This document shows positions 1,698 through 51,305 of a DNA stretch of 64,000 nucleotides, piece after piece. Made by a program: the position numbers and the translations under genes. Below the pieces are notes generated by a model. That model made no database searches. It was not told the DNA's origin and saw only the letters and a program-made list of their open reading frames with translations. The stretch lies in the IMG/VR virus record IMGVR_UViG_3300022562_001344, positions 1-64,000 of that record, one strand, 5' to 3'. Position 1 is the stretch's first letter. Every line of letters begins with the position of its first letter. The stretch comes from a virus.

Positions 1698-1943
1698 TCA
1701 GCGCGACACGACCACCCACGGGATGGTCCGCGCGGTCCTGGCCGACTCCTCTATTCTCAGGTCGACGTCCTGCTCGTGGCTCCGCGCGAACTTCAGTTCG
1801 ACCAGAGGCGTCTGTCCCGACCTGGACTCCGCCCGGGCGTGCTCGAACATCTCGATCTCCTTGGCCCCGGCATACACGGTGCACCCGCCGGGGCCAAGAA
1901 CGATGGTCACAGTCCCTTCCTCGAAGACGCGGGGCGCGTCCAT
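1698..1943 (-). CDS. hypothetical protein, 81 aa
   Basis: Small acidic protein of unknown function, predicted to be mostly beta-strands. ATG at 1943 overlaps the purZ stop in a TGATG arrangement, so it is probably translated by coupling with purZ; a GTG one codon earlier is also possible. It is the last gene of the four-gene minus-strand operon that starts at 4147. Being tied to purZ makes a role in nucleotide modification possible, but nothing in the sequence shows it. Confidence 0.65.
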   Translation of the reverse strand: MDAPRVFEEGTVTIVLGPGGCTVYAGAKEIEMFEHARAESRSGQTPLVELKFARSHEQDVDLRIEESARTARTIPWVVVSR

Positions 1944-3106
1944 CACAGGAGGCTGACCACGTCGTCGTGGTCGGGGCCCGTCCCGATGAGGACGACGGGG
2001 ACGCCAGCCTCCGCCTCGATCCGGTCGATCATGGCCCTGGTCTTGCTCGAGAGCTTGTAGAAGGCCTCGCGGCCCCCCTTGAGGCCGTGGTCGGCCCAGT
2101 CGAGGTACTGGACGAAGTTCAGGGCGAGCTTGGTGGCCCCGTTGACCTTCACGGCGTCCTTGAGGCCTTCGTAGCTGAACGTGCAGACACGGCGAATGCG
2201 CTTGGTCACGGTCGTGCGCTCCCGTTCCGCGAGTGCCCTGGCCTCAGCCTCAGGCATCCCGGACTCCGCGGCGACCTGCTCCCAGGTCAGCTCCCTGCAG
2301 TCGGGGTAGAAGCCGCCGGAGTACCCGACTTGTTTCCCGTCCTCCACGACGTTTCCGACGCGGATGGGAAACGTCCTGAGGTTGAGGTACACGTCCCCGA
2401 CGAGGCCTGGTGGGACGGCCATGTGGTCCATCGCCGCCTGCGCCGTGCAGTTCCTGCTCGTGCAGAACGGGTAGTGGGATCCGTGGTCGATGGAAAGGGC
2501 GAAGCCCTGGGATCCCTCGTGCAGCCACGTGTCCCCGTTCCCCATGGCGGACCAAGTCATGTCCCGGAACGCGGCGGGGTCGACGATCGTGACGCGGTCG
2601 TCCGCGTCGAGGCCCTCGAACGCTTTGCGCATGCTCTCCTCGTCGTTCCACGCGAGGACGCAGTCCGCCTTCCTGAGGACCTTGTCCGCGATAGCGGTCC
2701 CGGACCCCTGCATGGTGGACGCGACGTGCTTCGTGGACTCGTTGCCCTCGCGCTCCCTGCGCGCGTGGTCGTCCGTGACGATGGAGGCCCGGCCATGGAC
2801 GTAGATCCTGGGTCTCCCGGCTTGGCCCCACTCGAGCGCGACGCGCTCCCACGAGAATCCGGACCCGGGGGACAGCCAGCAGGTCATGCCCATCCCGCGG
2901 ACCTTCTTGAGGATCGCGGCGGTCGGGATCGCCTTTGCCACGAAGGTGGTCCCGTCGGAGAAGCGGGACGTGTGCCCGGCGTTCGGGAAGTTCGAGGAGG
3001 AGACCCGGGTCACGCTGAACTTGTCTGCGAGCCAGGTCGCCATCTTTCCCTTTCCTGAGCTCCCCCAAAACCCGTCCAGCAAGATGTTGAATTTGCCTCT
3101 TTGCAT
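1943..3106 (-). CDS. purZ: PurZ-type N6-succino-2-amino-2'-deoxyadenylate synthase (adenylosuccinate synthetase family)
   Basis: Member of the PurA fold. PurZ enzymes condense dGMP with aspartate, the first committed step to 2-aminoadenine (Z), which replaces adenine in Z-phage DNA. The P-loop reads WGSSGKGK (residues 14-21), where PurA has WGDEGKGK: the catalytic aspartate of PurA is a serine here, the known PurZ hallmark. The catalytic histidine is kept in PNAGHT (41-46). Further stretches recalled from Vibrio phage PurZ are present: EGSQGF, HYPFCTSR, FPIRVG, SGGFYPD, ELTWEQV and TVTKRIRR. The 387-residue length is between phage PurZ (about 340) and PurA (about 430). I chose the ATG at 3106 because an AAAGG site lies just upstream and the family alignment begins there; the longer reading frame to 3229 would overlap the preceding gene. 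Confidence 0.88.
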   Translation of the reverse strand: MQRGKFNILLDGFWGSSGKGKMATWLADKFSVTRVSSSNFPNAGHTSRFSDGTTFVAKAIPTAAILKKVRGMGMTCWLSPGSGFSWERVALEWGQAGRPRIYVHGRASIVTDDHARREREGNESTKHVASTMQGSGTAIADKVLRKADCVLAWNDEESMRKAFEGLDADDRVTIVDPAAFRDMTWSAMGNGDTWLHEGSQGFALSIDHGSHYPFCTSRNCTAQAAMDHMAVPPGLVGDVYLNLRTFPIRVGNVVEDGKQVGYSGGFYPDCRELTWEQVAAESGMPEAEARALAERERTTVTKRIRRVCTFSYEGLKDAVKVNGATKLALNFVQYLDWADHGLKGGREAFYKLSSKTRAMIDRIEAEAGVPVVLIGTGPDHDDVVSLL

Positions 3107-3427: not shown

Positions 3428-4147
3428 CTAGTCATTCGGCCGGAACGTCTCCGTCTCCACGGAGGACACCCTGGCTCTATCCCTCTCGCGCAGGATCTTC
3501 CTGAGGTCCCGGGCCTCCGCGTACTTGGCAATGGAGTACTCTGGCTTTTCCGGATCGCCGAGCGCGACGAGCCGCGCGCCCATGACCTCTTTCGGCGTGT
3601 ACTGCCTGCCCACGAGCTGGAGCTGCTTCCGGCGCTTCACGCGGTTTGCCCACCGCATCTCCAACATCCTTCGTACGGCCTTCTCGCTCACGAATTGGAT
3701 CCTAAGAGTCAGGTCGACCGGGATCTTTCTGTTGAGCCGTAGTGACATTCGGCAAGCGTAGTCGCAGCCGAGTGCGAACGCCTCCTGGAACGAGCTCGCC
3801 CGGAGGAGGACGTGGGACAGCCGGAATTTCGGAGGGAACATCGCCCTCCATATCTTCGTCCTGGGCCTGTCCTTGGCCGTCGGCCCGAGGAGTCGGCCTA
3901 GGGTCTCCTCCCGGTAGCCAGGAAATGCGAGGCACATGGCGGCATCGTAGAGCTGGTCGAACCTCGTCTTCCCCGCCCGGCCCGCCGGCGCGGGGACCCA
4001 CTCGAGGAGGTCGAGCGGGATGGCGTTGTTCTCGATGAGCTCCCGGAGCATCACACGGACGTACTCCCGTTCCTTCGGGCTCGACACTCTCCTCACGAAC
4101 GCCTCGAGCCTTCTCTGGTTCGGCCCGCTGTCCGGCTTCTTCACCAT
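3428..4147 (-). CDS. hypothetical protein, 239 aa, first gene of the purZ operon
   Basis: Basic helical protein that I do not recognise. The C-terminal third is rich in arginine and lysine and could bind nucleic acid. It is the first gene of the minus-strand group ending in purZ and the 81-aa gene, and it faces the hairpin-rich gap 4148-4506. ATACGGT lies 11 bases before the ATG and is the likely promoter for the group. Known Z-DNA phages usually carry DatZ (HD-domain) or MazZ next to purZ. This protein shows neither an HD motif nor a MazG-type ExxE pattern, so it is not an obvious equivalent. Confidence 0.7.
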   Translation of the reverse strand: MVKKPDSGPNQRRLEAFVRRVSSPKEREYVRVMLRELIENNAIPLDLLEWVPAPAGRAGKTRFDQLYDAAMCLAFPGYREETLGRLLGPTAKDRPRTKIWRAMFPPKFRLSHVLLRASSFQEAFALGCDYACRMSLRLNRKIPVDLTLRIQFVSEKAVRRMLEMRWANRVKRRKQLQLVGRQYTPKEVMGARLVALGDPEKPEYSIAKYAEARDLRKILRERDRARVSSVETETFRPND

Positions 4148-5995: not shown

Positions 5996-7495
5996 ATGAA
6001 GTACGTACCCGTCCCTATCCCGAGCAGCGTGTCCTTTCTTCCGCAGTGGAACCCATGGATCCACTCGAAGGTCTCCAAACACTTCAAGCGCGACAAGGAG
6101 AGGATCGCGGACACGGTTCAGAACGTGCGCCTTCGCCTCCTGCAGAAGGACTTCATTGGGCGCTGGTTCTTCAAGCACCTCAAGGACGAGGTCGTGGACC
6201 TCGCCGAGGCCCGGCGCATCTTGGGCGGCGCCCAGGTCACTTTCATCGGTCAGATCCCGTCTCTGGACGTCCCGAACGAGGACTGTCAGGAGCCGAAGTG
6301 CGTCGCCAGGCGCCGGCGCGGCCTTGGTTGCTCCAGGGCCTGCCCGAAGTCCCTCTGGCGCGTCTCGGACCTTCTCGCGTACGCCAAGTTCGACTACGAG
6401 CGCTATTATTACTCGCCCCAGGGACACACCATCGACAGCGAGCGCGTATTGCGCCTCATCGGGTATCCGCCCGGCTCGTTCGTCCCGGCCCATGAGTGTT
6501 CCGGGGACGGCTGCCAGGGGTGCAAGGCAACGGCTCACGTCCCCGGTGCCTACGCCATCCTCGAGTCCATGTACCGACAGAACCGGCTCAAGCCGGCGGA
6601 GCTGACCGAGCACGAGTGCAGCCATACCTCGTCCTGCGTCGGCTGCGAGCACGGCCGGGCTTTGTTGAAGTCCCGGGGGCTCTCCCTCGCCGATCGTTGG
6701 GACGACGCCCCGCAGGCGGCGTCGAAGCTTCGCTGGAATGACGCCCAGCTGATTCCCTTCCTTCGCCGGTGGCGCGGGACGAACGCCGTCTACGAGCCGC
6801 CCCAATACATCATGCGCCGGCCCGACGAGGACGGAGCGGTCCTTGGGATCGATGCCGGGCTGCTGAAGTACGTCGAGATCATCATCAACAACGAGGTCGT
6901 CAACGACTTCAAGCGGATGTCCCGGTCCGACGACGTGACGCGCGGCGTCTTCAACAAGGGGCTCTCCCCCGAGTTCTCAAACTCTGACCTCGTCGCCTTC
7001 GAGAATGAAGAGGGAGAGGAGCGCCCCCGTCAGGTGTTTAGAGATCTCTCCTCCCTCGACGGCTTTAGCGAGCTTGAGAACAAGCACGATGTCCGGTCCC
7101 TGATCGAGGAGGCCGGCCTTACGGAGGAGGAACGGGACGCCATCATGTCCGTGGAGCTCATGGAGATGACCGTCCGCCAATACGCCGAGAAGGCCGGCGT
7201 CCCGGTCCCGCGCGTCCACCGGGTGCGGGCCTCCGCCATGAGGAAGCTCCGCGGCGACTCCGACGCTGTTGCCGACGAGGTCGCCGAGGCTGTCTGCGAC
7301 CGGCACGGGTGCTCCGTCGAGGATCTTTCCTCGAGCCAGGTCGTCGGTCCGTGCGTCATCGCCAGGGCCGAGGTCTTCTCCGCGCTCTTCGACCGCGGGA
7401 TGAGCGTCCAGGCCATCGCGGTTCACTTCGGGTGTAGCGAGGACCGCGTCGCGGCTGCCATCAACCGCATGTGCCTCCGCGAGATGCGGGTCTAG
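5996..7495 (+). CDS. sigma-factor-like protein with DnaA-like C-terminal HTH
   Basis: 499 residues. Near the N-terminus RIADTVQNVRLRLLQ resembles sigma-70 region 2. The middle has two cysteine clusters (around residues 95-115, then CSGDGCQGC and CVGCEHG) that may bind zinc. Around residues 375-420, LTEEERDAIMSVELME followed by VRQYAEKAGVPVPRVHRVR is a sigma region-4 helix-turn-helix. The last 65 residues (GCSVEDLSS then IARAEVFSALFDRGMS) look like DnaA domain IV. It probably directs RNA polymerase to phage promoters. The ATG at 5996 has GGAGG nearby. The joining of sigma-like and DnaA-like HTH parts is unusual. Confidence 0.6.
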   Translation: MKYVPVPIPSSVSFLPQWNPWIHSKVSKHFKRDKERIADTVQNVRLRLLQKDFIGRWFFKHLKDEVVDLAEARRILGGAQVTFIGQIPSLDVPNEDCQEPKCVARRRRGLGCSRACPKSLWRVSDLLAYAKFDYERYYYSPQGHTIDSERVLRLIGYPPGSFVPAHECSGDGCQGCKATAHVPGAYAILESMYRQNRLKPAELTEHECSHTSSCVGCEHGRALLKSRGLSLADRWDDAPQAASKLRWNDAQLIPFLRRWRGTNAVYEPPQYIMRRPDEDGAVLGIDAGLLKYVEIIINNEVVNDFKRMSRSDDVTRGVFNKGLSPEFSNSDLVAFENEEGEERPRQVFRDLSSLDGFSELENKHDVRSLIEEAGLTEEERDAIMSVELMEMTVRQYAEKAGVPVPRVHRVRASAMRKLRGDSDAVADEVAEAVCDRHGCSVEDLSSSQVVGPCVIARAEVFSALFDRGMSVQAIAVHFGCSEDRVAAAINRMCLREMRV

Positions 7496-9297: not shown

Positions 9298-9537
9298 ATG
9301 TTCTTCTGCCCCCACTGCGGGGGCGGCCTTTCCCAGACGGGCTCTGCCGACCGTTTCGTCTGTCCGGACTGCCCTCGAGTGTACCAAGTCCGGGTGGAGA
9401 TCCGGGAGGTACCGGGGACACATGACTCGGATATACGGGAACCAAGGCTCCCAGGACCGGACGAGGTTCCTGCTGAGGACGGAGTCCAGGGCGAGGGTGA
9501 TAGTTCTGGCGGGCCCCTCCCACGTCGGGAAAGCTAG
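9298..9537 (+). CDS. small zinc-ribbon protein overlapping the delta' gene
   Basis: 79 residues. The first 30 hold CPHCGG and CPDC, a clear four-cysteine zinc ribbon. The second half overlaps the delta' gene for 116 bases in another frame and is low in structure, so only the N-terminal domain may matter. It starts three bases after the previous stop. The long overlap is odd; a frameshift that shortens the gene is possible. Confidence 0.45.
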   Translation: MFFCPHCGGGLSQTGSADRFVCPDCPRVYQVRVEIREVPGTHDSDIREPRLPGPDEVPAEDGVQGEGDSSGGPLPRRES

Positions 9538-10234
9538 CTTCGCGTCGGAGTTCTTCCTCGAGCAGCTCGAGGAGACCGACTTCTCTGTCGTTGATCACGG
9601 CGTTGCCGGCGCTCGGAACGCGGTGTCCTTCCTCTCTTCGGAGCCCTCTTTCAGTCCGTACCGGGCCGTCTTGGTTGACGGGGCCGAATCTTTGAGCGAG
9701 CCCGCACAGGATGCGTATTTGAAGCTCTGCGAAGAGCCCCCGGGGGACTCGCGCATCGTTTTCGTGACGGCGGACGAGTACTCTATGCTCCCGGCGCTCC
9801 GCTCCAGGATCCAGGAGGTCGTCCGTTGGTCTGCCCTCTCGGATGTCGACGTCTCGTCCTACGTCGCTTCGCTTGAGGGCGTCCGGGATCCGGATGCTGA
9901 GTCGATGTGCCGCGGCCGGCCCGGCCTCTACGCGGCCATGTCCGGGGACGCGGGTTTTCGCGAGCTCTCCCAGTCCGTTCTTTCCCTCGTTTCCGGACCC
10001 GCTTCCTTCGATCTCCCTGTCCCGTCCGTTATCAAGTCTCTGGAGAACAAGGCGTCTCCGAGACGCACGGCCGTGGCAGAGGTGTGCCGCGCGTCCGTCG
10101 CTGGCCTGGTCGGCGATCCGTCAAAGAGGCGAAAGTGCGCCGCCGTCCTGCGCTTTTCCGCCGTCCTGCTGCGTCATCCGTCGGCTAACGCTGAAGTTCA
10201 CTGGCAAAGGACCTCCGTTTCCTGTTCGCTGTAA
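9422..10234 (+). CDS. holB: DNA polymerase III delta'-like clamp-loader subunit
   Basis: 270-residue AAA+ protein. Residues 25-45 hold a degenerate Walker A (GPSHVGKAS), YRAVLVDGAESL is the Walker B region, and AYLKLCEEPPGDSRIVFVT with LPALRSRIQEV is the very characteristic delta'/tau region containing the SRC-like sensor. The altered Walker A fits delta', which does not hydrolyse ATP. It would form part of the phage clamp loader with delta (next gene) and DnaX (26315). The ATG at 9422 overlaps the zinc-ribbon gene. It ends 12 bases before the delta gene. Confidence 0.75.
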   Translation: MTRIYGNQGSQDRTRFLLRTESRARVIVLAGPSHVGKASFASEFFLEQLEETDFSVVDHGVAGARNAVSFLSSEPSFSPYRAVLVDGAESLSEPAQDAYLKLCEEPPGDSRIVFVTADEYSMLPALRSRIQEVVRWSALSDVDVSSYVASLEGVRDPDAESMCRGRPGLYAAMSGDAGFRELSQSVLSLVSGPASFDLPVPSVIKSLENKASPRRTAVAEVCRASVAGLVGDPSKRRKCAAVLRFSAVLLRHPSANAEVHWQRTSVSCSL

Positions 10235-10237
10235 TCT
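10232..10237 (+). promoter_or_regulatory. GTAATCT box before the delta gene
   Basis: TAATCT preceded by G, nine bases before the TTG start at 10247. Overlaps the stop region of the delta' gene. Confidence 0.45.
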
Positions 10238-10246
10238 GGAGATCCA

Positions 10247-11185
10247 TTGCCAGAGTTGGTTCTGATCAACGGGGAAGAGGAGTTTTTGAAGGAGCGGGCC
10301 GCCCTTCGGGAGGCCTCTGCCTCTCTCGCGCATTCTGTCTCCAGATACTCCGAGACGGACGGGCTTTCTGACTATCTGGACGAGTCTCAGCTTGTCCCCT
10401 TGTTCGGCGCCACACGCGCTTTCGTCATTTTCGACGCGACGGCCGTCCCCGAGCTCCCGGCCGGGGACGGGGATTTTCTCATATGCGTCTCCGCCTCGAA
10501 GAAGAAGCTCCAAGACTCGAGGGCTCGTCGAACGCACAACTTTCAGAAGCTGAAGTCGTTCAGTGATAATAATGACGTTGTCAGGTGGATCCTGCAGGAG
10601 GGGGACGCTCTCAAAATTGACCTGAGCCGGGTGGCGGGTGCGCTTTTTGTGAGCAGCGGAGGGAGCCTGCGGAAGATCTTCTCTGAGATCCGGAAGCTGG
10701 CGGTTCTCGTCCCTTCCGGTGCCATAGCGTCCCCGGAGGTGGCCAGGTCTGTTTTGTGCTTTTCTGCGGAACTGACGCCGAAGAGCGTCATCGATGCGAT
10801 ATGCGAAGGAAACCCGGTCAAAGCGCTGACCTTCTACGACAAGCTCCAGGAAGGGGCGGACGAGACCGGGTGGGTCATAGCCTTTCTCCAGAGGCACGTC
10901 CTTCGCCAGCTTCGTCTCGCGTCCCTGGCCAAGGAGGGTCTGGATTCGGACGAGATCGCGTCCCGTCTCGGGGTGCATCCGTTCGTCTTCAGGAAGTTCC
11001 ACGAGCCTATGTTGGGCTTGTGGTCCCCGAGTTCTTTGGCCGAGAGCGCCGAGACGCTAGGGGATCTGGACGTCCTTCACAAGGGAGGGAGGGCGTCCGC
11101 GCGCGTCGGCCTGGAACTGGAGATCGTTCGTCTGTCTGAGGAGGCTAGAGAGAATGTCGAACAGCGTGGCAGCGGCCGTTTCTGA
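10247..11185 (+). CDS. holA: DNA polymerase III delta-like clamp-loader subunit
   Basis: 312 residues. The order of features follows HolA: an N-terminal LVLINGEEEFLKERA segment (the usual G-x-E-x-F/L start), a central lid region, and C-terminal helices with FLQRHVLRQLRLASLA, typical of the delta collar domain. Delta opens the sliding clamp during loading. The TTG start at 10247 has GGAG close by, and no ATG or GTG fits the alignment. Its end overlaps the ribonucleotide reductase start by 32 bases. Confidence 0.75.
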   Translation: MPELVLINGEEEFLKERAALREASASLAHSVSRYSETDGLSDYLDESQLVPLFGATRAFVIFDATAVPELPAGDGDFLICVSASKKKLQDSRARRTHNFQKLKSFSDNNDVVRWILQEGDALKIDLSRVAGALFVSSGGSLRKIFSEIRKLAVLVPSGAIASPEVARSVLCFSAELTPKSVIDAICEGNPVKALTFYDKLQEGADETGWVIAFLQRHVLRQLRLASLAKEGLDSDEIASRLGVHPFVFRKFHEPMLGLWSPSSLAESAETLGDLDVLHKGGRASARVGLELEIVRLSEEARENVEQRGSGRF

Positions 11186-13967
11186 AGCTAAGTCCCCCGG
11201 GATCGCAACCCTCGAGCAGGTCGCCGGGCGGCTTCCAGCCGAGGGGAAGGACGCTGGGCGCTGGAAGAGGGTCTACACCAGGGAGGGGATCCATCCGTTC
11301 GACGAAATTGAGTGGAAGCGCGTCGATGCCAAGATCGTCGGCCCTGACGGCGATGTCAAGTTCGAGCAGAAGGGTGTCGAGGTCCCCGCCTTCTGGAACC
11401 AGACGACCGTGAACGTCGTCGTGAACAAATATTTCCGGATGATCGACGGGATCAAGGAGACGTCCGCCAAGCAGATGTTCTCCAGGGTCGCCTCCACCGT
11501 CCGGCAGTGGGCCGAGGAGCAGAACTACTTCAACACGCCGGCGGACGCGGAGGTCTACGAGCACGAGCTCGTCTATGCCCTCCTCACGCAGCGTGGCGCC
11601 TTCAACTCCCCGGTCTGGTTCAACCTCGGCGTCCCCGGACGCCGTCAAGCCGCCTCGGCCTGCTTCATCTCCGGGGTCGAGGACACGCTCGACTCCATCA
11701 TGGACTTTGCGAAGTCGGAGAAGGTCATTTTCGCCGGCGGCTCCGGATCGGGGGCCAACATGTCGAAGATCAGGTCCTCGTACGAGAAGCTCTCGTCCGG
11801 GGCCTACGTGTGTGGGCCGGTTGGGTGGATGGAAGAGCTCGACAAGGGCGCCAAGGCCATGAAGTCCGGCGGGTCGACCCGCAACGCGGCCAAGATGGTC
11901 GTGCTCGACATGGACCATCCAGATATCCTCGAGACGAAGGACGGGCGCCCCGGGTTCATTCGGTGCAAGGCGGTCGAGGAGAAGCGTGCCCACGATCTCA
12001 TCGACATCGGATACAGCGCCGCTTACGACGACCCGAATTCCGCGTACAAGTGGGTCTCGTTTCAGAACGCGAATCACTCCGTCAGCATCCCGGACGCCTT
12101 CATGGAGGCCGTCAGGAATGACGACGTCTGGTACACTCACGAGCGTGTTGGGGGAAGGCCCGTCAGCCAGTACAGGGCGCGAGAGCTCTGGGAGGAGATT
12201 GCCAAGGCCGCATGGTTTTGCGGAGATCCTGGCGTCCAGTTCACGGATACGATCAACAAGTGGCACACGACGCCGAACGCTGGACGCATCAATTCGTCCA
12301 ATCCGTGCTCGGAGTTTCTCCACGTCGACAACACGGCCTGCAATCTCTGCGCCGTGAATCTGACCAAGTTCTTCGACGGACGCACGCTCAACGTCCAGGA
12401 CTTTGAGCATGCGATCCGCCTCTTCGTCACGGCTCAGAATGCCATCGTTGCGAAGGCCGACTATCCGACGGACTCCATCAGGGAAAATTCTCTGGCCCTC
12501 CGCCCCATCGGCCTGAACTACGGCGATCTCGGCGCCTTGCTCATGAAGCTTGGCTATGGCTACGACTCCGACGGGGGGAGGGCTATCGCCGCAAGGCTCG
12601 CAAGCCTCATGACCGCCTTCGCTTACCTGACCTCCGCGAAGCTCGCGGCCCGGGTCGGTCCGTTCCCGGAGTTCAAGAACAACCGGGACGAGATGATCAA
12701 CATCATGGAAATGCACCAGAAGGCGGACTCCAAGATCCTTGGCACCTGGTCCCAGGAGTCTGACCCCCTCGGCAACGACGTGATGAGCCGAAGTAGGGAG
12801 GCGTGGGCGGAGGTCATCCGCCTTGGCTCGAAGTTCGGGTACTCGATATCCCAGGCCACGCTTCAGGCCCCCCTCGGGACCATCTCATTCCTCATGGGCA
12901 TGGACACGACCGGGATCGAGCCTTGTTTCTCGCTCGTCTCCTACAAGTCGCTCGTCGGCGGCGGGTTCGAGAAGCTTACGAACGGGTCTGTCCGTGCCTC
13001 CCTCTCTGCGCTCGGGTATCCGGACGCCACGGTCGACGCGATTTGCACCTACATGCAGGACCACGATTTCATCGAGGGGGCCCCGGGCTTCCGTGCTGAG
13101 CACCTTCCGATCTTCGACTGCGCGATGCCGCTTGGTCCCTCCAAGCGGTGTCTCTCACCCCTCGCTCACCTGAAGATGATGGCGGCCATCCAGCCCCTCA
13201 TCACATGTGCTCAGAGCAAGACTGTGAACATGCCGCCGGAGACGACGCCGGAGGAGATCGCCGACACGTACATGAAGGGGTGGGAGCTCGGGCTGAAGTG
13301 CATCGCTCTCTACAGGGATGGATGTAAAAAGTCTCAGCCCCTCGCCACGAAGAAGCGCTCGGACGAGCAGCTCGAGAAGAACGGCGATCCGTACAGGACC
13401 GCGGCTGTGGTCGAGGTCCGTGAGGTCGTCCGTGAGGTCACGAAGCGCAGACATATGCCGGAGGACTGCGTCGGCCGGAGGCACCGCTTCGAGATCAACG
13501 GCCACAAGGGCTACATCATCGTCAACGAGTTCCCGGATGGGACGCCCGGCGAGGTCTTCCTCAGGCTCGGAAAGAGCGGGTCGACGATGGAGGGCACGAT
13601 CAACGGGTTCACGCAGCTCCTGAGCATTGCCCTGCAGTACGGGGTCCCCCTCGACAAACTCATTCGCAGCTTCGTGAACACCCGCTTCGACCCCTCGGGC
13701 TTCACCAGGAACCCGAAGATCCGGATGGCCCAGAGCATCTTCGACTACCTGTTCAAGCACCTGGACCTCATGTACTATGGTGGGGAGCACTCGGGTCTCG
13801 ACCACCGGCTCGACTCGGTGGTCCCTCCCCCTCCTCCCTCCTCGGACTCCGAGCCCCCGAGCCTCTCCCTGGATGCTCCTCCCTGCCCGAACTGTGGCGG
13901 TATCACGAGGCGGAACGGATCCTGCTACTTGTGTGACACGTGCGGTAGCAGCACCGGCTGTAGCTAA
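11154..13967 (+). CDS. nrdJ: class II (adenosylcobalamin-dependent) ribonucleoside-diphosphate reductase
   Basis: 937 residues. Reduces ribonucleotides to deoxyribonucleotides using B12. Recognisable parts are FNSPVWFNLG and ACFISGVEDTL (active-site cysteine region), FAGGSGSGANMSKIRS, the finger-loop NPCSEF carrying the thiyl-radical cysteine, LGTISFLMG, and the late NrdJ region with SKTVNMPP and YRDGCK. The C-terminal tail CPNCGG...C..C...C is the usual redox/zinc tail. Oxygen-independent supply of dNTPs fits a phage with ThyX, which is likewise common in phages. There is no metal-dependent class I enzyme in the window. The ATG at 11154 lies in the end of holA, so translation is coupled. Confidence 0.93.
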   Translation: MSNSVAAAVSEAKSPGIATLEQVAGRLPAEGKDAGRWKRVYTREGIHPFDEIEWKRVDAKIVGPDGDVKFEQKGVEVPAFWNQTTVNVVVNKYFRMIDGIKETSAKQMFSRVASTVRQWAEEQNYFNTPADAEVYEHELVYALLTQRGAFNSPVWFNLGVPGRRQAASACFISGVEDTLDSIMDFAKSEKVIFAGGSGSGANMSKIRSSYEKLSSGAYVCGPVGWMEELDKGAKAMKSGGSTRNAAKMVVLDMDHPDILETKDGRPGFIRCKAVEEKRAHDLIDIGYSAAYDDPNSAYKWVSFQNANHSVSIPDAFMEAVRNDDVWYTHERVGGRPVSQYRARELWEEIAKAAWFCGDPGVQFTDTINKWHTTPNAGRINSSNPCSEFLHVDNTACNLCAVNLTKFFDGRTLNVQDFEHAIRLFVTAQNAIVAKADYPTDSIRENSLALRPIGLNYGDLGALLMKLGYGYDSDGGRAIAARLASLMTAFAYLTSAKLAARVGPFPEFKNNRDEMINIMEMHQKADSKILGTWSQESDPLGNDVMSRSREAWAEVIRLGSKFGYSISQATLQAPLGTISFLMGMDTTGIEPCFSLVSYKSLVGGGFEKLTNGSVRASLSALGYPDATVDAICTYMQDHDFIEGAPGFRAEHLPIFDCAMPLGPSKRCLSPLAHLKMMAAIQPLITCAQSKTVNMPPETTPEEIADTYMKGWELGLKCIALYRDGCKKSQPLATKKRSDEQLEKNGDPYRTAAVVEVREVVREVTKRRHMPEDCVGRRHRFEINGHKGYIIVNEFPDGTPGEVFLRLGKSGSTMEGTINGFTQLLSIALQYGVPLDKLIRSFVNTRFDPSGFTRNPKIRMAQSIFDYLFKHLDLMYYGGEHSGLDHRLDSVVPPPPPSSDSEPPSLSLDAPPCPNCGGITRRNGSCYLCDTCGSSTGCS

Positions 13968-24369: not shown

Positions 24370-24992
24370 TTCTCCTGCGAATACTTGAGCACGACTTGCA
24401 TAGGTCCAGGCAGGGAGACGCGGTGCCCCTGTGCGTCGGGATCCCGGCCAAGAAGGAGTTCCTTCCCGCCATCGTTTCCAACTCGAAGGGGAAGTTCGTC
24501 GCCATAGACCATCTCGGCCCCTCGAACGGGATGAAGGCGCTCATTCCGAATGTCCCGTGGGACTCGGAACGCATCTACGGGCTCGTTTTCCCCTGGGACT
24601 CGGACCGGCTCGATGACGTTATAGGGGATATGTGTTCTGCGGCTCGAGACCTGTCTGTGGCCAACAACTGGGGGAACGTCTTCTCCGGCAATGGCGCAGC
24701 AAAGAAGGCGTTCGACTACGTCCACGAGTCCTCCGGTCTGGATGGGCAGCCCCACGTCTGCCTGGTCCCGGAGGGGTGGAGCCAGTCCAGGATCAAGCGT
24801 TTCTTTGGGAAGTCGAACGTCGATGAGCAGCAGCGGAAGTACCGCCGTCACTGCTGGATCGTCTCGTCCAAAGCTGAGTTCCCGGTCTTCTTGTCTCGTC
24901 CTGACTTCGTCGGGATGTACACCCAGTTCATGGGCGGAAACTCGAGCATCGTCCTGCACAACGTTCGTCTCGGAATGGGCTTCTGTCTGTGA
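24366..24992 (+). CDS. hypothetical protein, 208 aa
   Basis: No recognisable domain. Mixed alpha/beta sequence with a hydrophobic centre and a C-terminal strand-rich end (SSIVLHNVRLGMGFCL). Starts in the stop of the previous gene (ATGA) and ends in the start of the primase (GTGA), so it is tightly coupled to both and probably belongs to replication. Confidence 0.65.
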   Translation: MILLRILEHDLHRSRQGDAVPLCVGIPAKKEFLPAIVSNSKGKFVAIDHLGPSNGMKALIPNVPWDSERIYGLVFPWDSDRLDDVIGDMCSAARDLSVANNWGNVFSGNGAAKKAFDYVHESSGLDGQPHVCLVPEGWSQSRIKRFFGKSNVDEQQRKYRRHCWIVSSKAEFPVFLSRPDFVGMYTQFMGGNSSIVLHNVRLGMGFCL

Positions 24993-25798
24993 CTCTGGTC
25001 GACGGGTTTGTTGAGTGGGCCCACACTGGCCTCCTGGACAGCGACGAGGCGCAGGCGTATCTGCGCGGTCGCGGGGTCTCAGAGGAGCAGTGGGTTAGGC
25101 ACCGGCTCGGCTATGTCGCCGGGGACTACTCCGTTGATCCTTCCATCGACCCGGGCCACAACGAGGCTTGTGGTGATAGGGACAAGAGGGGCCTATGGTG
25201 TGACAGCTGCCGCTACGCTCACTGGTCTGCGGTTTGGGTCAGGGCTGACGACGAGCCGGAAGACGCCCCGAAGCGCCCGATCATGGGCCGTAGGATACTC
25301 GGCGGAGTCGTTTTCCCTCTCACGAACTACGCCGGCGGGACCGTCGGGTTTCAAGTCAGGTCTATCACCGAGAAGTCTTATGACACCTTCACCGTCCGAC
25401 ATCGTCCGGAGGGGTATTTCTTCGGCATAGCCCAGAGCATTCAGTCCATATGGACGACTCGAGAGGCGTGGATCGTCGAGGGCGGTTTCGACCATCTCGT
25501 GATCGAGCGTCTGGTTGCCAAGAACGTGGTCAGTTTGACCACCAGTGCCCCGGGGAAGGAGCAGACAAGGTTCCTTCGCCGCTTCGTGGACACGGTGAAT
25601 TCATGCCTGGACCGTGACGCCGGCGGAAGGAAGGGCTTTCAGTCCATAGTTAAGTGGAACTCCGACCACTTCGGCATTCGGGATATCGAGTATCCTCGGG
25701 TCAAGCCGAAGGACAAGGATCTCGGTGACTTCTGGAAGTCCGTCGGGGACGAGGCCTTTGCCAGGTATTTCAGGGAGAGAGTAATCTCCAGATTTTGA
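24989..25798 (+). CDS. DnaG-like DNA primase core
   Basis: 269 residues. AYLRGRGVSEEQWVRHRLGYVAG is the start of the DnaG catalytic core (the Rgis...lGya motif, here in segments), followed by a cysteine insert (CGDRDKRGLWCDSC), FPLTNYAGGTVGFQVR, and a TOPRIM fold with VEGGFDHL (catalytic glutamate) and LDRDAGG (catalytic aspartates). It lacks both the usual N-terminal zinc domain and a C-terminal helicase domain. It should make RNA primers for lagging-strand synthesis. GTG start overlaps the previous stop. Confidence 0.75.
   Translation: MTLVDGFVEWAHTGLLDSDEAQAYLRGRGVSEEQWVRHRLGYVAGDYSVDPSIDPGHNEACGDRDKRGLWCDSCRYAHWSAVWVRADDEPEDAPKRPIMGRRILGGVVFPLTNYAGGTVGFQVRSITEKSYDTFTVRHRPEGYFFGIAQSIQSIWTTREAWIVEGGFDHLVIERLVAKNVVSLTTSAPGKEQTRFLRRFVDTVNSCLDRDAGGRKGFQSIVKWNSDHFGIRDIEYPRVKPKDKDLGDFWKSVGDEAFARYFRERVISRF
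25782..25787 (+). promoter_or_regulatory. GTAATCT box within the primase 3' end
   Basis: G-TAATCT placed 18 bases before the GTG at 25806; the short leader would contain the GAGG ribosome site. Confidence 0.4.
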
Positions 25799-26314: not shown

Positions 26315-27697
26315 GTGGCTAAGCTCGACCTGAAGTACCGACCGTCCCGCTTCTCCCAGGTGCTCGGGAATGAGGGGATCCGGAAGCTGCTTCTGAAGCG
26401 GAGTGTTGACGGGACCCTCGGCGACCAATCCATGATGTTCGGGGGTCCGAAGGGCTGTGGCAAGACGTCCATGGCCCGGATCGTCGCTCGCGCATTGCTG
26501 TGCGCGGACCTGGACGGTGGTGAGCCGTGCGGTGAATGCCAGACATGCCGTGCTGTTCTGAATGATGTGTGCGACGGCGTTGAAGAGCTTGATGCGGCAT
26601 CTCAGGGGACCGTTGACAGGGTTCGGGCCATGGTCCAAGAGGCTGACTATGGGACGATTGACGGGAAGGACCGGCACGTCTATATCATCGACGAGGCCCA
26701 AAGGCTCTCGAAGGCTGCGCAGGACGCCCTCCTGAAGGCTGTGGAGAGCCGCCTCTTCACTGTCATTCTTTGTACGACTGAGCCCCAGAACATCAAGGGA
26801 CCCATTAGGGACAGAGTCGAGGAGTACCCGGTATATCCTCCATCCCAGGAGGAGCTCGTCGGTTATCTCGAGAGGGTCTGTCAGCTCGAGTCTGTGACTG
26901 CTGATCGGGACGCTCTTTCTACGATCGTGGAAATGACCGGTCGGACTCCCAGGTCCTGCCTCCTTGCTGTTGACTCAATCTCCGTTCTCGGAGATGTGAC
27001 CGTTGACTCTGTCAGTGCTCACTTCCGCTTCAACAGTTATATGGCCGTGGACCGGATCCTCGGGAGTTTGGACTCTGACCCTGCCTCTGCTTTTGCCTCC
27101 CTGGATGAGCTCTCCCGCCGAGAGAGCCCGACCTGGATTCGAGATTCGATTGTTCTTGCTATTTCAAGCGGTCTCAGGTCTCAGATCGGGGCTAAGTCCA
27201 CATATCCAGTTAAGACGGGATTCTTTTCGATCCGTGGTCGAGGTTGGCTAGACTTGGCCCGCGACCTGAGTCGAATCGATCGTCCGTCCATGGCGGACGT
27301 AGAAGCGTCTTTGCTTTCCGGGGTTCCGGCATCCCACTTCCCGATCCAAGACCCGGTCCCTCGGGAAGTTCCCCCGCCCCCGCCCCCGCCCCCGCCCCTT
27401 CCCGAGCCCGTGGATGAGCTTAAGCCAGAGCCTAGACCCGAACCGACTCATCCCGCCCCGCCCGCCCCGCCTCCTCCGGAGCCGTCTCCGTCAAAGAAAG
27501 AGATAACGGTGGATGGTGTGACTTTTTCCAAGGCTGAAAGCCTCACCACCTTGGACGGGAAGATATCCTCTCGTAAGGAGGATGAGCCTGTCGGGGAGCG
27601 CGACGAGATTCCGGTAGGGTTGGACGAGAGCCGTGCCCCACTCACAGAAAAGGAATTCGTCTCCAACTTCCTCGGAAAGTTCAGAGCAATCCGTTGA
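26315..27697 (+). CDS. dnaX: DNA polymerase III tau/gamma-like clamp-loader ATPase
   Basis: 460 residues. LKYRPSRFSQVLGN is the classic DnaX opening. Then Walker A GGPKGCGKTSMAR, the four-cysteine zinc module (CADLDGGEPCGECQTC), Walker B VYIIDEAQRLS, and ALLKAVESRLFTVILCTTE with the sensor region. After about residue 340 comes a proline-rich linker with a run of nine prolines, as in tau, ending in a short C-terminal domain. It powers clamp loading with delta and delta'. GTG 26315 is chosen because GTAGTCT is exactly five bases upstream; the frame further upstream overlaps the previous gene. Confidence 0.88.
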   Translation: MAKLDLKYRPSRFSQVLGNEGIRKLLLKRSVDGTLGDQSMMFGGPKGCGKTSMARIVARALLCADLDGGEPCGECQTCRAVLNDVCDGVEELDAASQGTVDRVRAMVQEADYGTIDGKDRHVYIIDEAQRLSKAAQDALLKAVESRLFTVILCTTEPQNIKGPIRDRVEEYPVYPPSQEELVGYLERVCQLESVTADRDALSTIVEMTGRTPRSCLLAVDSISVLGDVTVDSVSAHFRFNSYMAVDRILGSLDSDPASAFASLDELSRRESPTWIRDSIVLAISSGLRSQIGAKSTYPVKTGFFSIRGRGWLDLARDLSRIDRPSMADVEASLLSGVPASHFPIQDPVPREVPPPPPPPPPLPEPVDELKPEPRPEPTHPAPPAPPPPEPSPSKKEITVDGVTFSKAESLTTLDGKISSRKEDEPVGERDEIPVGLDESRAPLTEKEFVSNFLGKFRAIR

Positions 27698-29383: not shown

Positions 29384-30160
29384 ATGTCTCATATCCTGAT
29401 TCAGGACCCTAGTGACCTATCTGCTAGATTCAGCAACAAGGACCGGCTCGGGTACGACGGTGACGGGTCCGACTTCGAAATCGACGCTCTGATCGAGAAG
29501 GAGCTCGCTCCGGAACCGGAGGAGGACCTGATCGCGGATGACCGTCCGGCCTTGGAGTTCGAGGCAATCGAGCGGTATCTTCCGAGAATCCCGTCCCGGG
29601 AGAAGGACCTCATCTCCCTCTACTACCGCGACCGGATGAAGCAAGAGCAGATAGCCAGGCTTTTTGGTATCACTCAGGCCGCCGTCTCCTACAGGCTTCA
29701 CCGGGGTATCCGGCGCATTCAGTTTCTCAGGACGATCCCGGAGCTCGAGCAGGACGTCTTCAGGTTCGAGCTTGGTCCGAAGTTCTCCGGCCAGGATCTC
29801 GAGATTCTGTGGCGCATGTACGAGACGACGTGCCAGTCCGCCATCGCGAAGGAGATGAACCTGACGCAGGGGAGGGTTCGCCATCGCTTCTTCAGGTCTC
29901 TCTCTCGGATCAAGGAGCTCATCGCCGAGGAGGTTCGCGTCCGAGAGGCTCAGATCCGCGAGATGATCAGCCGGGGCCGTCAGTTCTCCAAGGAGGAGTA
30001 CCAGGAAGAGCTCGACAGGACGATCGAAGAGTCGAAGTACGGAAAGTACTGGACCGTCTTCTACGCCATCTCGGACCGTCACTTCAACATTCTGCACGAG
30101 GTCTCCCTCCCTCAGTTCCGGGACCGCGGGGACGCGCAGATTATCTCTTCGGACGCATGA
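29384..30160 (+). CDS. sigma-like regulator with two helix-turn-helix domains
   Basis: 258 residues. Two sigma region-4-like HTHs occur in tandem: REKDLISLYYRDRMKQEQ followed by IARLFGITQAAVSYRLH (residues 70-110), and QDLEILWRMYETTCQ followed by IAKEMNLTQGRVRHRF (about 135-175). The rest is helical and charged. The N-terminus is acidic. It probably controls phage transcription, perhaps late genes, as it stands between the replication and structural modules. ATG 29384 is preferred; the upstream extension to 29255 is translated GATAC repeat. Confidence 0.65.
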   Translation: MSHILIQDPSDLSARFSNKDRLGYDGDGSDFEIDALIEKELAPEPEEDLIADDRPALEFEAIERYLPRIPSREKDLISLYYRDRMKQEQIARLFGITQAAVSYRLHRGIRRIQFLRTIPELEQDVFRFELGPKFSGQDLEILWRMYETTCQSAIAKEMNLTQGRVRHRFFRSLSRIKELIAEEVRVREAQIREMISRGRQFSKEEYQEELDRTIEESKYGKYWTVFYAISDRHFNILHEVSLPQFRDRGDAQIISSDA

Positions 30161-36685: not shown

Positions 36686-38641
36686 ATGCCGAGTACTGAG
36701 AAGCCCGACAAGAGCCGTCTTAGCGGCGTGGTGGACTCGGTCCTGAACGCTCGGCGCAGGGCTCGCGGCGATGATCAGCCCGAGTTTCTGAACATAATCG
36801 AGTTCATCGACAGGTTCAACCTTCTTCCGGACGGGCTCTTCCCGGTCCAGAAGTTTATCCTGAAGCTGTACTACGACATCCCGCTCGACGACACCGTTCC
36901 GGAGAAGGAAAGCGATAAGATCAAGATCACCGACAGGTACGGGAACTTCAAGGGGTACCTGTCCGAGGTTCAGTATCTCCAATACCTGTACGAGCAGGGC
37001 CGGTGCAACATCAAAGAGCAAGGCGGTAGGCCTCGCCGCGAGCTTATTCTCGTCCTCGGTCGCCGGTCCGGGAAGAGCACGCTCAGCTCCATCATCACCG
37101 TGTATGAGCTCTACCGGCTCCTGGTCCGCGGCCAGCCTCAGTCCTACTACGGCGTCCCGGACGGGAGCGAGATACGCATTATGTGCGTTGCCAACGACAA
37201 GGACCAGGCGGAGATCGTCTACCAGGTCATATCGAACTACACGACGACGCTCGACTACTTTTCCGACTCCCTCGTCCATGACACGAAGACCTACCAGAGG
37301 TTCCAGACCGCCAGGGACGTCGAGAAATTTGGGAAGGGGGACCTAAAGAACGGCGGGAAGGGGACGCTCACGGTCACCTTCAAGAGCTCCGTCGCCAAGG
37401 GCCTCCGCGGCCGCGGCAATATCGTCGTGATCCTCGACGAGATTGCGTTCTTCGTGGACGACGGGAAGTCCTCTGCGAAGCAGATATACAGGGCCATCAC
37501 CCCGGCCACGAAGCAGTTCTCCCCGAAGGACCCGACGGACAAGCGCGTCCCCATAGGTCCGACGGAGGGCCGCGTCATCCTCATCTCGTCCCCGGACGCG
37601 AAGGAGGGGTTCTTCTTTCAGCAATACCAGACAAGCAAGTCAGGCGGCAAAGCCGCTCGGGACATGCTCATGATCCAGGCCCCGACCTGGGAGGTTAACC
37701 CGACCCTCAGCCCGGAGGACTACGAGATCGAGTATGCGAAGGCGCCCAGCGATTTCGAGACGGAGTACGGGGCCAAGTTCTCTGACCGTGTCCGGGGCTG
37801 GATCGAGAACGCCAAGGATCTGACTGACTGCATAATTCCCGGCCTCGTCCCTCTGCCGAGGGGGAACCCGAGGGAACCTTTCTTTGCCGGCCTGGACTTC
37901 GGCATAGCCCAGGACGGGACCTCCGTCAGCCTCACCCACCTGACGGAGGGGCGCATCCAGCTCGGATACCACGAGACCTGGTACGCCGGGAAGCGCTGGG
38001 AAGAGTCAAACCCACACCTCGTTGGCCCACTCGTCCCCTACGCCAGGACTCTCCAGGACGTGGACCGTCTCGACATTGACGAGATCATCGATTGGCTCGT
38101 GATCCTGTCGAAGCGCTTCTACATAGAGAAGGGCCTTTTCGACCAGTACGCCGGCCACATCTTCGAGCAGAAGCTCCATAAGTCCGGCCTCCGGCAGTTC
38201 GAGATGCGGAAGTTCACCGCAGCAGAGGCTTCCTCGTGCTACGGGAACGCCCGCTTTCTGATGTACGCGCATCAGCTCGGCCTGTACGACTATCCGATCC
38301 CGGAACAGTCCTCCGGGATTGAGCTTAGCGAGGATCTCCACTCTCCGCACATCGTCGAGCTCCTCGAGCTCCAGGCCTCCTCCGGAGGGAAGAACATCAC
38401 GGTTGTCGAAGCTCCGAAAGTCCAGGGGAAGCACGATGACTTCTCCGACAGCCTCGTCAGGAGCTGCATGCTTGCTGCCGAGTATGTCCGGGAGAACCCG
38501 GATGCCCTCGAGTTGAGTCAACATCGGATCGTGGTCCCGACCCAAGCCAGGGCCGTCGGGTACCACCAGTTCCATCGCGCCAGGGCCCGTATACACGGCC
38601 CGCCTCCCCGGGAGCGCCGGGTCTTCCCCCGTCGAAGATAG
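36686..38641 (+). CDS. terL: large terminase (packaging ATPase-nuclease)
   Basis: 651 residues. Walker A-like LVLGRRSGKST, Walker B VVILDEIAFF (DE catalytic pair), coupling motif region VILISSPDAKEG, and the RNase H-like nuclease with GLDFGIAQDGT (first aspartate), later KGLFDQYAGH and the final HDDFSDSLVRS aspartate. It packages DNA into proheads and cuts concatemers. ATG 36686. The tail after residue 620 is arginine-rich, which is longer than in common relatives. Confidence 0.93.
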   Translation: MPSTEKPDKSRLSGVVDSVLNARRRARGDDQPEFLNIIEFIDRFNLLPDGLFPVQKFILKLYYDIPLDDTVPEKESDKIKITDRYGNFKGYLSEVQYLQYLYEQGRCNIKEQGGRPRRELILVLGRRSGKSTLSSIITVYELYRLLVRGQPQSYYGVPDGSEIRIMCVANDKDQAEIVYQVISNYTTTLDYFSDSLVHDTKTYQRFQTARDVEKFGKGDLKNGGKGTLTVTFKSSVAKGLRGRGNIVVILDEIAFFVDDGKSSAKQIYRAITPATKQFSPKDPTDKRVPIGPTEGRVILISSPDAKEGFFFQQYQTSKSGGKAARDMLMIQAPTWEVNPTLSPEDYEIEYAKAPSDFETEYGAKFSDRVRGWIENAKDLTDCIIPGLVPLPRGNPREPFFAGLDFGIAQDGTSVSLTHLTEGRIQLGYHETWYAGKRWEESNPHLVGPLVPYARTLQDVDRLDIDEIIDWLVILSKRFYIEKGLFDQYAGHIFEQKLHKSGLRQFEMRKFTAAEASSCYGNARFLMYAHQLGLYDYPIPEQSSGIELSEDLHSPHIVELLELQASSGGKNITVVEAPKVQGKHDDFSDSLVRSCMLAAEYVRENPDALELSQHRIVVPTQARAVGYHQFHRARARIHGPPPRERRVFPRRR

Positions 38642-39595: not shown

Positions 39596-41395
39596 ATGGC
39601 CGCTAGCAAAAAGGGCACCGGGCAGGGACGCACCCGCGTAGGTCAGCCCATCCAGTACGTGGACGACCAGAAGGTCCCCAGCAACCGCCTCACGAAGCTC
39701 GAGAGACAGGCGCGCAGGGAAGCCGCCCAGTCCATCCGGGTCGCGTCGCTCGGGTTCGGAAGCTTTGGGAATAGTGGGCCCGGTTCCATTCTCAACGCTG
39801 ACTCCCAGTTCTACAGCCCCCAGCTCTCCACCGACTTCCTCGAGCTACCCCAGTCGGAGCGCGAGAAGCGCGAGCTCTTCCGGTTCTGGTACACGACACA
39901 CCCGATCGTCGGCGCGTCTATCGACTTTCACACCGACGTCCCGATGTCGAAGATCCGTCTTTCCCTCCCGAAGGCGAAGGATAAGACGCGGGCGAAGCAA
40001 ATTCTGCACTTCTATCAGCAGATGTGCAAGCGGATCAAGCTTTTCCAGGTCCTGTACGACGCGACTCATGAGTACTGGCTGCACGGGAACGTCTTCATTT
40101 TCTGTGAGGACGACGACATGGCGTCGGACATCCCGGAATCGGCCCTCGTTGACGAGAAGGAAGAAGAGGTCGGAGCCGTCGACTACGCCGGACGACTCGA
40201 GCGAAGGAGCATCAAGAAGAAGATCCCGAAGCCCGAGAAGGAGCGCGAGAAGATCATCCACAAGCTCGTGCAGGACAAGTACCAGGGATGGCAGCGCCTG
40301 CAGATCCTTCCTCCGGAGCAGGTGAGGCTCGAGGTCTTCCAGTACACGGACAAGACGCGCATGGAGCTCATCCCGTCCGAGAAGGACAGGATGGTCGTCC
40401 TGAAGGCGGAGCAGCAGGGGGACTCCGACGCCGCCAGGATCGCGAACGACATGCCCGAGCAGATCCGTGAGAATCTGCTCAACGGCCAGCCCATACCGCT
40501 GAACACGAGCCCGTACGAGGACTTTCTTTGTTCCTCGTTCTGCTACCACCTCTCGCACAAGAAGTCGGCCTACGACGATCGGGGTATCTCCATCCTCGAG
40601 CGCTGTCTCCGAACTCTCCTATATCAGGATAAGCTTCGTCAGGCCCAGACCCAGATCGCCTCCCGCGCCATGACCCCGAAGCGGGTCGTTTGGGCGGACA
40701 AGATGAGCCAGACCGACGTCGACGACGTCCGGGATCAGATCGATCAGGCGCTCATCGACCCGGACTTCACCGTCGTCACGAACTTCGAGCTGCACTGGGA
40801 CGAGATCGGGTCCCGGGACAGGCTCCTCGACCTTTCCGTCGAGTACGAGATCACGAACAAGCTCTTGTTCATAGGCCTGCGCATCACCGAGTCGATGCTG
40901 ACCGGCGAGAGCACCTACGCCGGCGAGCGCATCCATCTCGATGTGATGAACACGATGTACCTCCTTTACCGGGAGACCATCGCACAGTTTGTCGAGGAGC
41001 AGCTCTTCGCCCCGGTGGCAGAAAAGAAGGGGTTCTGGGAGGAGGACGAGGCAGGGAATAAGGTCCTGCTCTATCCCAAGCTCCAGTTCACGCGGCTCGC
41101 TCTGCGCGACAACACCGAGCTCCAGGACTTTATGTTCAACCTGTATCAGAAGGGCTCGATGCCCGTCTCGTACATCTACGAGCTCCTGAACATCGACGTG
41201 GACGACGCGCACGCGGAGCTCCTTAAGGACTTCCTGACTCTCAAGGACTCGACGATGAATGAGCTCATTCGGGAGCTCCTCTCCACCGTCGGGAGCGCCT
41301 TCGCGGACGAGACGAACGCCAAGGAGCTCATCGCGAAGAACCTCGGCCTCATCCTTCAGGATAAGGAAAGCGACCGCTTCGGCAAGGAGGAGTAG
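39596..41395 (+). CDS. portal protein
   Basis: 599 residues. Typical portal features: FRFWYTTHPIVGASIDFHTD near residue 100 (crown/wing start), HEYWLHGNVFIFCED, a long central charged region, then RGISILERCLRTLLYQDKLR and the stem-clip region ending near FTVVTNFELHWDEIG. The size fits myovirus-type portals. It follows the terminase with two small genes between and precedes the head genes. ATG 39596. Confidence 0.85.
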   Translation: MAASKKGTGQGRTRVGQPIQYVDDQKVPSNRLTKLERQARREAAQSIRVASLGFGSFGNSGPGSILNADSQFYSPQLSTDFLELPQSEREKRELFRFWYTTHPIVGASIDFHTDVPMSKIRLSLPKAKDKTRAKQILHFYQQMCKRIKLFQVLYDATHEYWLHGNVFIFCEDDDMASDIPESALVDEKEEEVGAVDYAGRLERRSIKKKIPKPEKEREKIIHKLVQDKYQGWQRLQILPPEQVRLEVFQYTDKTRMELIPSEKDRMVVLKAEQQGDSDAARIANDMPEQIRENLLNGQPIPLNTSPYEDFLCSSFCYHLSHKKSAYDDRGISILERCLRTLLYQDKLRQAQTQIASRAMTPKRVVWADKMSQTDVDDVRDQIDQALIDPDFTVVTNFELHWDEIGSRDRLLDLSVEYEITNKLLFIGLRITESMLTGESTYAGERIHLDVMNTMYLLYRETIAQFVEEQLFAPVAEKKGFWEEDEAGNKVLLYPKLQFTRLALRDNTELQDFMFNLYQKGSMPVSYIYELLNIDVDDAHAELLKDFLTLKDSTMNELIRELLSTVGSAFADETNAKELIAKNLGLILQDKESDRFGKEE

Positions 41396-50408: not shown

Positions 50409-51305
50409 ATGGTGGCAGGAAACTTCGGAGTTCAGGTCGTCGACAACTCCATCAAGGAGCAGATCGTCGACCGCTTCATCGGGTCACCCGCGGGCCGTCG
50501 CCGGCTCGCCGCCTCGATGATTCAGCCGCTCCGTGAGCGGCGAGACTACTCGTCCGTCGGCCGCAAGACCTTCTTGGTCGAGCAGCTCCCGGACGGTGCG
50601 CTTCCGATCTACGACAAGGACCCGGACGTCATCGCGTACGTGATCGGCGAAGAGGGCGAGAGCATCACCGCGGTCATGAAGCCGCGGCGCGTGATCTTCC
50701 CGCTCTTCGAGATCGCAGCGTTGCCCAAGGCTCCGCTGACGCAGATCAAGGAGCGCCGGTACGACCTCCTCAAGCGTATGCAGGACCTCGGCAAGGCGCA
50801 GATCCAGGCTGCCGAAGACGACCGCGTCTTCAGCATCATGGACGCCATTGCGGTGAACGGCTTCGACTCGCTCCCGGGCGGGACGAACCCGGACATCCCG
50901 GTGGTGGCGCCGATCTCGCCGGCCGTCCTCGCGGACGCCTTCGCGGAGATCGAGTTCCACGACCTCAGGGTCGCTCGCGTTTACATGAACGCGAGGGACT
51001 ACGCCGACATCCGCAAGTTCGGCCGCGACGTTCTCGACATCGAGAGCCAGGCCACCTTGTGGAAGACCGGCATGATGAGCACGGGCTGGAACGCCCAGTT
51101 CATCGTGTCGCGTCTCGTCCCGGCCGGCGTGGTCTACTGCTGCTGCGAGCCCGAGATGTTCGGTCGGATCCCGGTCCGCACCGAGCTCACGGTCCTCAGC
51201 GCGGACAACCCGGAGGAGCGCACCATCGGATTCAGCATGTTCGAGAACTTGGGCATCGGCGCCTACAACCCCCGTGGGTTGGTGCGTCTGATCGTCACTC
51301 GCTGA
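50409..51305 (+). CDS. major capsid protein (HK97-fold candidate)
   Basis: 298 residues. Segments typical of HK97-type capsids include an N-terminal helix, an E-loop-like strand pair (TFLVEQLPDGALPIYDKD), a long spine helix region (RRYDLLKRMQDLGKAQI), and the P-domain end IGAYNPRGLVRL. GAAAGGAG precedes the ATG by about five bases, one of the strongest ribosome sites in the window. Follows scaffold candidate and is followed by a strong hairpin. Length fits short-form capsid proteins. Confidence 0.75.
   Translation: MVAGNFGVQVVDNSIKEQIVDRFIGSPAGRRRLAASMIQPLRERRDYSSVGRKTFLVEQLPDGALPIYDKDPDVIAYVIGEEGESITAVMKPRRVIFPLFEIAALPKAPLTQIKERRYDLLKRMQDLGKAQIQAAEDDRVFSIMDAIAVNGFDSLPGGTNPDIPVVAPISPAVLADAFAEIEFHDLRVARVYMNARDYADIRKFGRDVLDIESQATLWKTGMMSTGWNAQFIVSRLVPAGVVYCCCEPEMFGRIPVRTELTVLSADNPEERTIGFSMFENLGIGAYNPRGLVRLIVTR

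Follow-up and report, generated by a model that had tools for sequence, protein, structure and literature searches.

Does a stretch of viral DNA that carries a purZ-like gene come from a phage that builds its genome with 2-aminoadenine (Z) in place of adenine, and what sort of phage would that be? The stretch comprises positions 1 to 64,000 of IMG/VR record IMGVR_UViG_3300022562_001344 (the window; the whole record has 82,276 bp). The original prediction placed a PurZ-type gene at 1943-3106, and inspection of the open reading frames (ORFs) confirms these coordinates and puts the gene on the minus strand. It encodes 387 amino acids starting at the ATG at 3106 (MQRGKFNILLDGFWGSSGKGK...), a longer ORF that reaches 3229 being only an upstream extension, and all four motifs quoted in support of the prediction are in the protein (WGSSGKGK at residues 14-21, CTSRNC at 215-220, FPIRVG at 246-251 and ELTWEQV at 272-278). 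The product would be N6-succino-2-amino-2'-deoxyadenylate (dSMP) synthetase, making dSMP from dGMP, aspartate and ATP. As argued below, the gene belongs to a lineage of jumbo phages that, judging from their sequences, probably synthesise dZTP and incorporate Z when they copy their genomes, adenine being kept out mainly by a reshaping of the nucleotide pool.

Family scores alone leave the choice between PurZ and PurA (adenylosuccinate synthetase) undecided. The match to Pfam PF00709 is far beyond chance (2.8e-32) and the best NCBIfam match is the PurZ model NF038379 (3.6e-54), but its 184 bits lie below the curated cut-off of 300 (a database threshold that represents no biochemical feature) and barely above the 182 bits (1.5e-53) scored by the archaeal-type PurA model. 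The best match among PHROGs is PHROG 1211, "2-aminooxy adenylosuccinate synthetase" (7.9e-53). An AlphaFold model of the protein (predicted local distance difference test score, pLDDT, 92.4; predicted template-modelling score 0.91) finds the PurZ proteins of cyanophage S-2L (7odx) and phage phiVC8 (6fko/6fm1) as the PDB matches ranked first by E-value; template-modelling (TM) scores fail to separate PurZ from archaeal PurA (Pyrococcus PurA, 5k7x, TM 0.79/0.90).

The tree is more telling. In a maximum-likelihood analysis of 48 sequences (bacterial and archaeal PurA, PurZ0, PurZ, and relatives derived from metagenome-assembled genomes, or MAGs), PurA falls outside the PurZ branch (support 100/99) and PurZ0 is separate (100/100). 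The window protein and 12 jumbo-phage relatives form one branch (83/94), which joins a MAG-derived phage protein, L210 (100/92), and then a protein of Flavobacterium phage MaF61 (99/94, on a long branch); the whole assemblage is sister to classical PurZ (99/95), within PurZ (100/98). The assignment to PurZ therefore holds: the protein sits inside the PurZ clade, not within PurA and not with PurZ0, and the substrate-contact residues that were tested agree.

Those residues are read against S-2L PurZ, with ligand-position roles taken from PMC8342488: Ser16, Val250, Thr298, Asn330, Phe331 and Gln333 correspond to S-2L Ser23, Val241, Thr273, Asn305, Phe306 and Gln308. Ser16, in the P-loop WGSSGKGK (3044-3067, minus strand), replaces the catalytic Asp13 of PurA; the alignment has Ser at this position in every phage PurZ or PurZ0 row and Asp in every PurA row, and Ser is found in all 147 phage PurZ/PurZ0 proteins (PMC12884076). 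FPIRVG (2354-2371, minus) forms part of the dGMP pocket, Arg249 and Val250 aligning with S-2L Arg240 and Val241, the latter of which clashes with a ribose 2'-OH (PMC8342488). Thr298 (2213-2215, minus) is Gly in all PurA rows. Asn330-Phe331-Val-Gln333 (2108-2119, minus) make up an ATP-type base pocket, whose last position is Asp in PurA and PurZ0 rows, and Gln or Asn in the ATP-type enzymes. Thus Ser16, Thr298 and the Asn-Phe-Gln set match PurZ and not PurA, and the last of these also exclude PurZ0. The near-equal NCBIfam scores and the fold common to Pyrococcus PurA are what can be said for a diverged PurA supplying AMP to the infected cell as an ordinary metabolic gene; with the protein outside PurA in the tree, and with Ser16, Thr298 and the ATP-type pocket found in no PurA row, that explanation is very improbable. 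Still less probable is a GTP-using enzyme of PurZ0 type, which has Ser at the Asp13 position in common with the window protein, but forms its own branch and has T/S-M-x-D where the window protein has N-F-x-Q, so that residues and tree both contradict it. Tree and pocket residues together support a true ATP-type PurZ.

The fragment comes from a jumbo phage, to judge by its relatives. These turned up in an IMG/VR scan, on contigs 436, 363, 274, 240 and 62 kb long (genes were called with our own simple caller on contig stretches), and 13 further contigs of the lineage encode PurZ homologues about 60-71% identical to the window protein. The 82-kb fragment is collinear, in reverse, with approximately 310-406 kb of the largest relative (G001; 436,316 bp, with ends that match by a 127-bp overlap), and is collinear also with further contigs of jumbo phages, 240-427 kb in length; genomes in this family of giant phages reach about 436 kb. 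The terminase large subunit (36686-38641), the portal protein (39596-41395; nearest named relatives LR745208, of 485 kb, Tunturi_5 and phage G) and the major capsid protein (50409-51305) all lie on the plus strand. The last of these, approximately 90-96% identical across the purZ lineage, serves as lineage marker: 17 sequences form one clade of the capsid tree (98/98), which holds all 13 purZ-positive records of the set. One further contig, G003, whose capsid stood outside the capsid-tree set, also has purZ. The count of 13 in 17 looks patchy because the four remaining contigs stop short: judged from the 47-64 kb that separate capsid gene and purZ in other members, G008, G011 and G014 end before the expected locus and G016 about at it (contig coordinates). 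Nearly all clade members that are long enough to tell therefore carry purZ. PF00709 has no match in the sister set (capsids about 77-79% identical, the 618-kb and 485-kb records included; G022 and LR745208 are apparently the same genome), in Tunturi_5 or in phage G.

The original prediction noted that no partner enzyme of known Z phages is visible in the window and that such genes might lie outside it. In the collinear relatives they do, in part: an HD phosphohydrolase paired with a MazG-like enzyme, an adenylosuccinate lyase (PurB) and a family-A DNA polymerase are found there, but the polymerase is not a DpoZ and the hydrolase is not a classical DatZ. (With the DatZ, MazZ and DpoZ of S-2L and phiVC8 as tblastn queries, only weak HD and PolA matches are obtained.) The HD protein (PF12917) is encoded by seven large members, G001, G002, G010, G011, G012, G015 and G017, and has no match in the sister or outgroup records; among PHROGs it comes closest to "dATP triphosphohydrolase" (1.7e-18), and the HD metal site and the phosphate-binding Arg19, Lys81 and Lys116 of DatZ are kept in all seven. 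The next gene encodes the MazG-like protein, which emerged as this neighbour (MazG PF03819 has no match in G000-G005). PF12643 matches it in six of the seven; it has similarity to PHROG 229 (1.8e-9), a profile match to MazZ (hhalign, P 6.7e-6) and weak PDB matches to RS21-C6/dCTP pyrophosphatase, and the GEAGE and ELPD motifs of its representative A2 constitute an ExxE...ExxD metal site. Scanning IMG/VR with its profile yields 13 loci, a few of them on contigs that share identical sequence; an HD gene lies within 3 kb at every one, and directly upstream on the same strand at 12. By analogy with these relatives, the window phage may be expected to carry the pair beyond the end of the fragment.

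Does the pair serve general nucleotide salvage that has nothing to do with Z? Similar HD genes lie near thymidylate synthase in other phages (Bordetella CN1 and Acinetobacter Ab1-TPeters, for example) and the active site of the HD protein resembles that of YfbR. Against this, neither gene occurs in the purZ-less sisters, both occur wherever a purZ-clade contig extends far enough to include the region, and the same two kinds of enzyme make up the Z-cluster of S-2L; we consider salvage improbable. PurB (PF00206) is found in six members, G002, G003, G007, G010, G011 and G015, and in no sister record; the four proteins that were scanned (G007, G010, G011 and G015) score 415-474 bits, all passing the TIGR00928 cut-off of 326. 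The family-A polymerase is found in eight members, its exonuclease residues kept (Pol III alpha, PF07733, has no match in G000-G005). Two observations on polymerases stand beside these: at LR745208.1 285077-288784 the PolA match is split across a 1763-residue frame, as it would be if inteins or similar insertions broke up the gene, and the polymerases of phages OH (PurZ; L088 5969-7795) and Hiyaa (PurZ0; L094 718-3108) also lack the Tyr-to-Phe change discussed below, having Ser and Tyr, respectively.

The pathway that these genes suggest can be set out as follows. The MazG-like pyrophosphohydrolase would convert dGTP to dGMP, feeding PurZ, which would make dSMP; PurB, phage-coded in several members and otherwise the host's, would convert dSMP to dZMP, and host kinases would take dZMP to dZTP. 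Formation of dZTP by host kinases is established for phiVC8. The YfbR/DatZ-type HD phosphohydrolase would lower dATP or dAMP (PurZ itself perhaps also lowering dATP), and the phage polymerase would copy DNA with Z opposite T, using what the pool offers. Z in the DNA would then protect against host nucleases. It is from these likenesses that we infer what the HD and MazG-like enzymes act on, and that virion DNA contains Z.

Several observations weigh against this interpretation. The jumbo HD proteins fall outside the DatZ clade (97/92, in a tree with long branches and modest support), and the adenine gate Ile22 of DatZ is absent, the position being mostly Ser or Thr (and Trp20 mostly Phe or Tyr). 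Residues 20 and 22 and the tree thus reject the candidate of a classical DatZ. Ile22 of S-2L DatZ keeps out the 2-amino group and an I22A mutant has relaxed purine specificity (PMC8065100), so the jumbo enzyme may not be specific for dATP. The MazG-like match to MazZ is remote, too remote for a tree. PurB is absent from G001, which disposes of it as a universal part of the jumbo kit, and is not seen in G012 and G017. The polymerase groups with those of the purZ-less G019 and Tunturi_5 (99/98), outside the DpoZ-1 and DpoZ-2 clades, and keeps the steric-gate Tyr766 in all eight members; a Tyr-to-Phe change at 766, in helix O, is the one mutation common to both DpoZ clades (PMC8599892). Residues and tree exclude its being a DpoZ: by its sequence it is an enzyme inherited vertically with the purZ-less relatives and has no recognisable preference for Z. 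Finally, no cultured member of the purZ jumbo lineage was found.

It is from these same features, a polymerase outside the DpoZ clades with Tyr766 and an HD protein lacking the Ile22 gate, that a different outcome might follow: PurZ works but, polymerase and hydrolase not being strict, Z replaces adenine only in part and the genome is an A/Z mixture. When the S-2L genes were expressed in E. coli, a significant fraction of the adenine was converted, but not all of it (PMC8342488). On the other side stand the adjacency of HD and MazG-like genes at nearly all loci and the precedent of S-2L, which replaces all of its adenine with a non-discriminating polymerase (PMC8065100), so that pool control alone can suffice. 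A mixed genome is, to our minds, rather unlikely. We prefer Z-DNA synthesis in which, the jumbo polymerase not being a DpoZ, adenine would be excluded mainly through an altered pool, as in S-2L.

What is already known here is PurZ and the kinds of partner enzyme; what is new is the jumbo-phage setting, a separate PurZ branch, different HD and MazG-like enzymes, and a polymerase that is not DpoZ. A search that covered little of the subscription literature and no preprints found no link of PurZ with jumbo or huge phages. The findings suggest that the use of Z instead of A may extend to phage genomes of very large size. We give an even chance to the fuller proposition: that a phage-G-related lineage of about 0.4 Mb gained, in the course of its own evolution, a Z system with scattered genes and in part newly devised (a divergent PurZ, an HD dNTPase and a MazG-like enzyme that both differ from the known ones and, in some members, a phage PurB), and that these are the largest Z genomes yet, copied by a polymerase without Z preference. 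The genomes being related, the co-occurrence counts represent one or a few evolutionary events. Were it true, Z-DNA would reach genomes approaching half a megabase, by way of a kit that is dispersed and was put together independently; the lineage would put to the test whether control of the pool is enough by itself in so large a genome, and there would be new enzymes for making Z-DNA. The purZ-less sister genomes provide a natural before-and-after comparison.

Other genes of the window bear on this to varying degrees. Just upstream of purZ lies a conserved ORF of 239 residues (3428-4147, minus) that is present at the purZ loci of the window and 11 relatives, with many invariant Arg, Trp and Cys; it has no match in either sister genome, no notable match to Pfam, PHROG, PDB or phage records, and a poor structure model (pLDDT 52), and it is a candidate for a new part of the Z system. 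An 81-residue ORF (1698-1943, minus) overlaps the purZ stop and is kept near purZ in most relatives. Downstream, in the same direction and cut by the contig end, is a ThyX-like flavin-dependent thymidylate synthase (1-1098, minus) that has no match in the sister genomes. A class II (B12) ribonucleotide reductase (11154-13967, plus) is the likely supplier of deoxynucleotides for the Z pathway. Replication genes, all on the plus strand, comprise two clamp-loader-like genes of Pol III delta type (9422-11185; PF13177 and PF21694), a DnaG-type primase core (Toprim; 24989-25798) and a DnaX-like AAA+ clamp loader (26315-27697). There are two sigma-70 type factors (5996-7495 and 29384-30160) and a two-component signalling set of three consecutive genes (60632-63118), a PAS-HisKA-HATPase histidine kinase between two response regulators, for which G001-G005 gave no match. 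At 51375-54781 a minus-strand HNH endonuclease directly follows the major capsid gene, a homing-type position, and the 921-residue HEAT-repeat protein after it has no match in G001-G005. Beyond the window, at 76872-82276 of the record, a long frame that runs off the contig end is 64% identical over 1880 residues to a 2424-residue protein of G001, and is probably a very large structural protein.

How does this system compare with others? Its nearest named relatives, LR745208, Tunturi_5 and Bacillus phage G (capsid identities 77%, 46% and 37%), differ in having no match to PF00709, PF12917 or PF00206. S-2L resembles the jumbo lineage in logic: it shares the PurZ pocket residues, Gln308 among them, has both an HD phosphohydrolase and a MazG-like enzyme, and its polymerase lacks the DpoZ signature. 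In contrast, S-2L has a 45-kb genome with adjacent purZ, mazZ and datZ and a PrimPol, whereas in G001 more than 200 kb separate purZ from the HD/MazG pair, and the jumbo lineage has an HD protein without Ile22, a family-A polymerase and, in some members, a phage PurB. Phages of the phiVC8/SH-Ab 15497 type (PurZ, DatZ, MazZ-2/DUF550, DpoZ-2) share the PurZ superclade, the HD and pyrophosphohydrolase functions and a family-A polymerase; the jumbo PurZ is a sister branch, however, and the polymerase, with Tyr766, is outside the DpoZ clades. The PurZ0 phages (Wayne, Ghobes, Hiyaa; DutZ/DmtZ, DpoZ-1) differ in PurZ0 branch and GTP-type pocket, though Hiyaa and Archimedes also carry PurB beside the PurZ-like gene. 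L210 (508-4131), whose PurZ is 43% identical to the window protein and lies beside a class II ribonucleotide reductase, comes from a contig that was assigned to an Actinomycetes MAG by binning and is probably that of a phage of another lineage. MaF61 (168 kb, cultured) is a different phage with a long PurZ-like branch (2.54); its Ser-type PurZ-like protein and adenylosuccinate lyase (L087 19983-21326 and 31667-33022) are annotated as plain purine genes. We know of no test of MaF61 for Z-DNA; grouping with the jumbo branch as its PurZ-like protein does, it offers an accessible one. The Z phages compared have genomes of 38-83 kb, usually with a specialised polymerase or with their genes closely clustered; the window phage, in contrast, is a jumbo phage.
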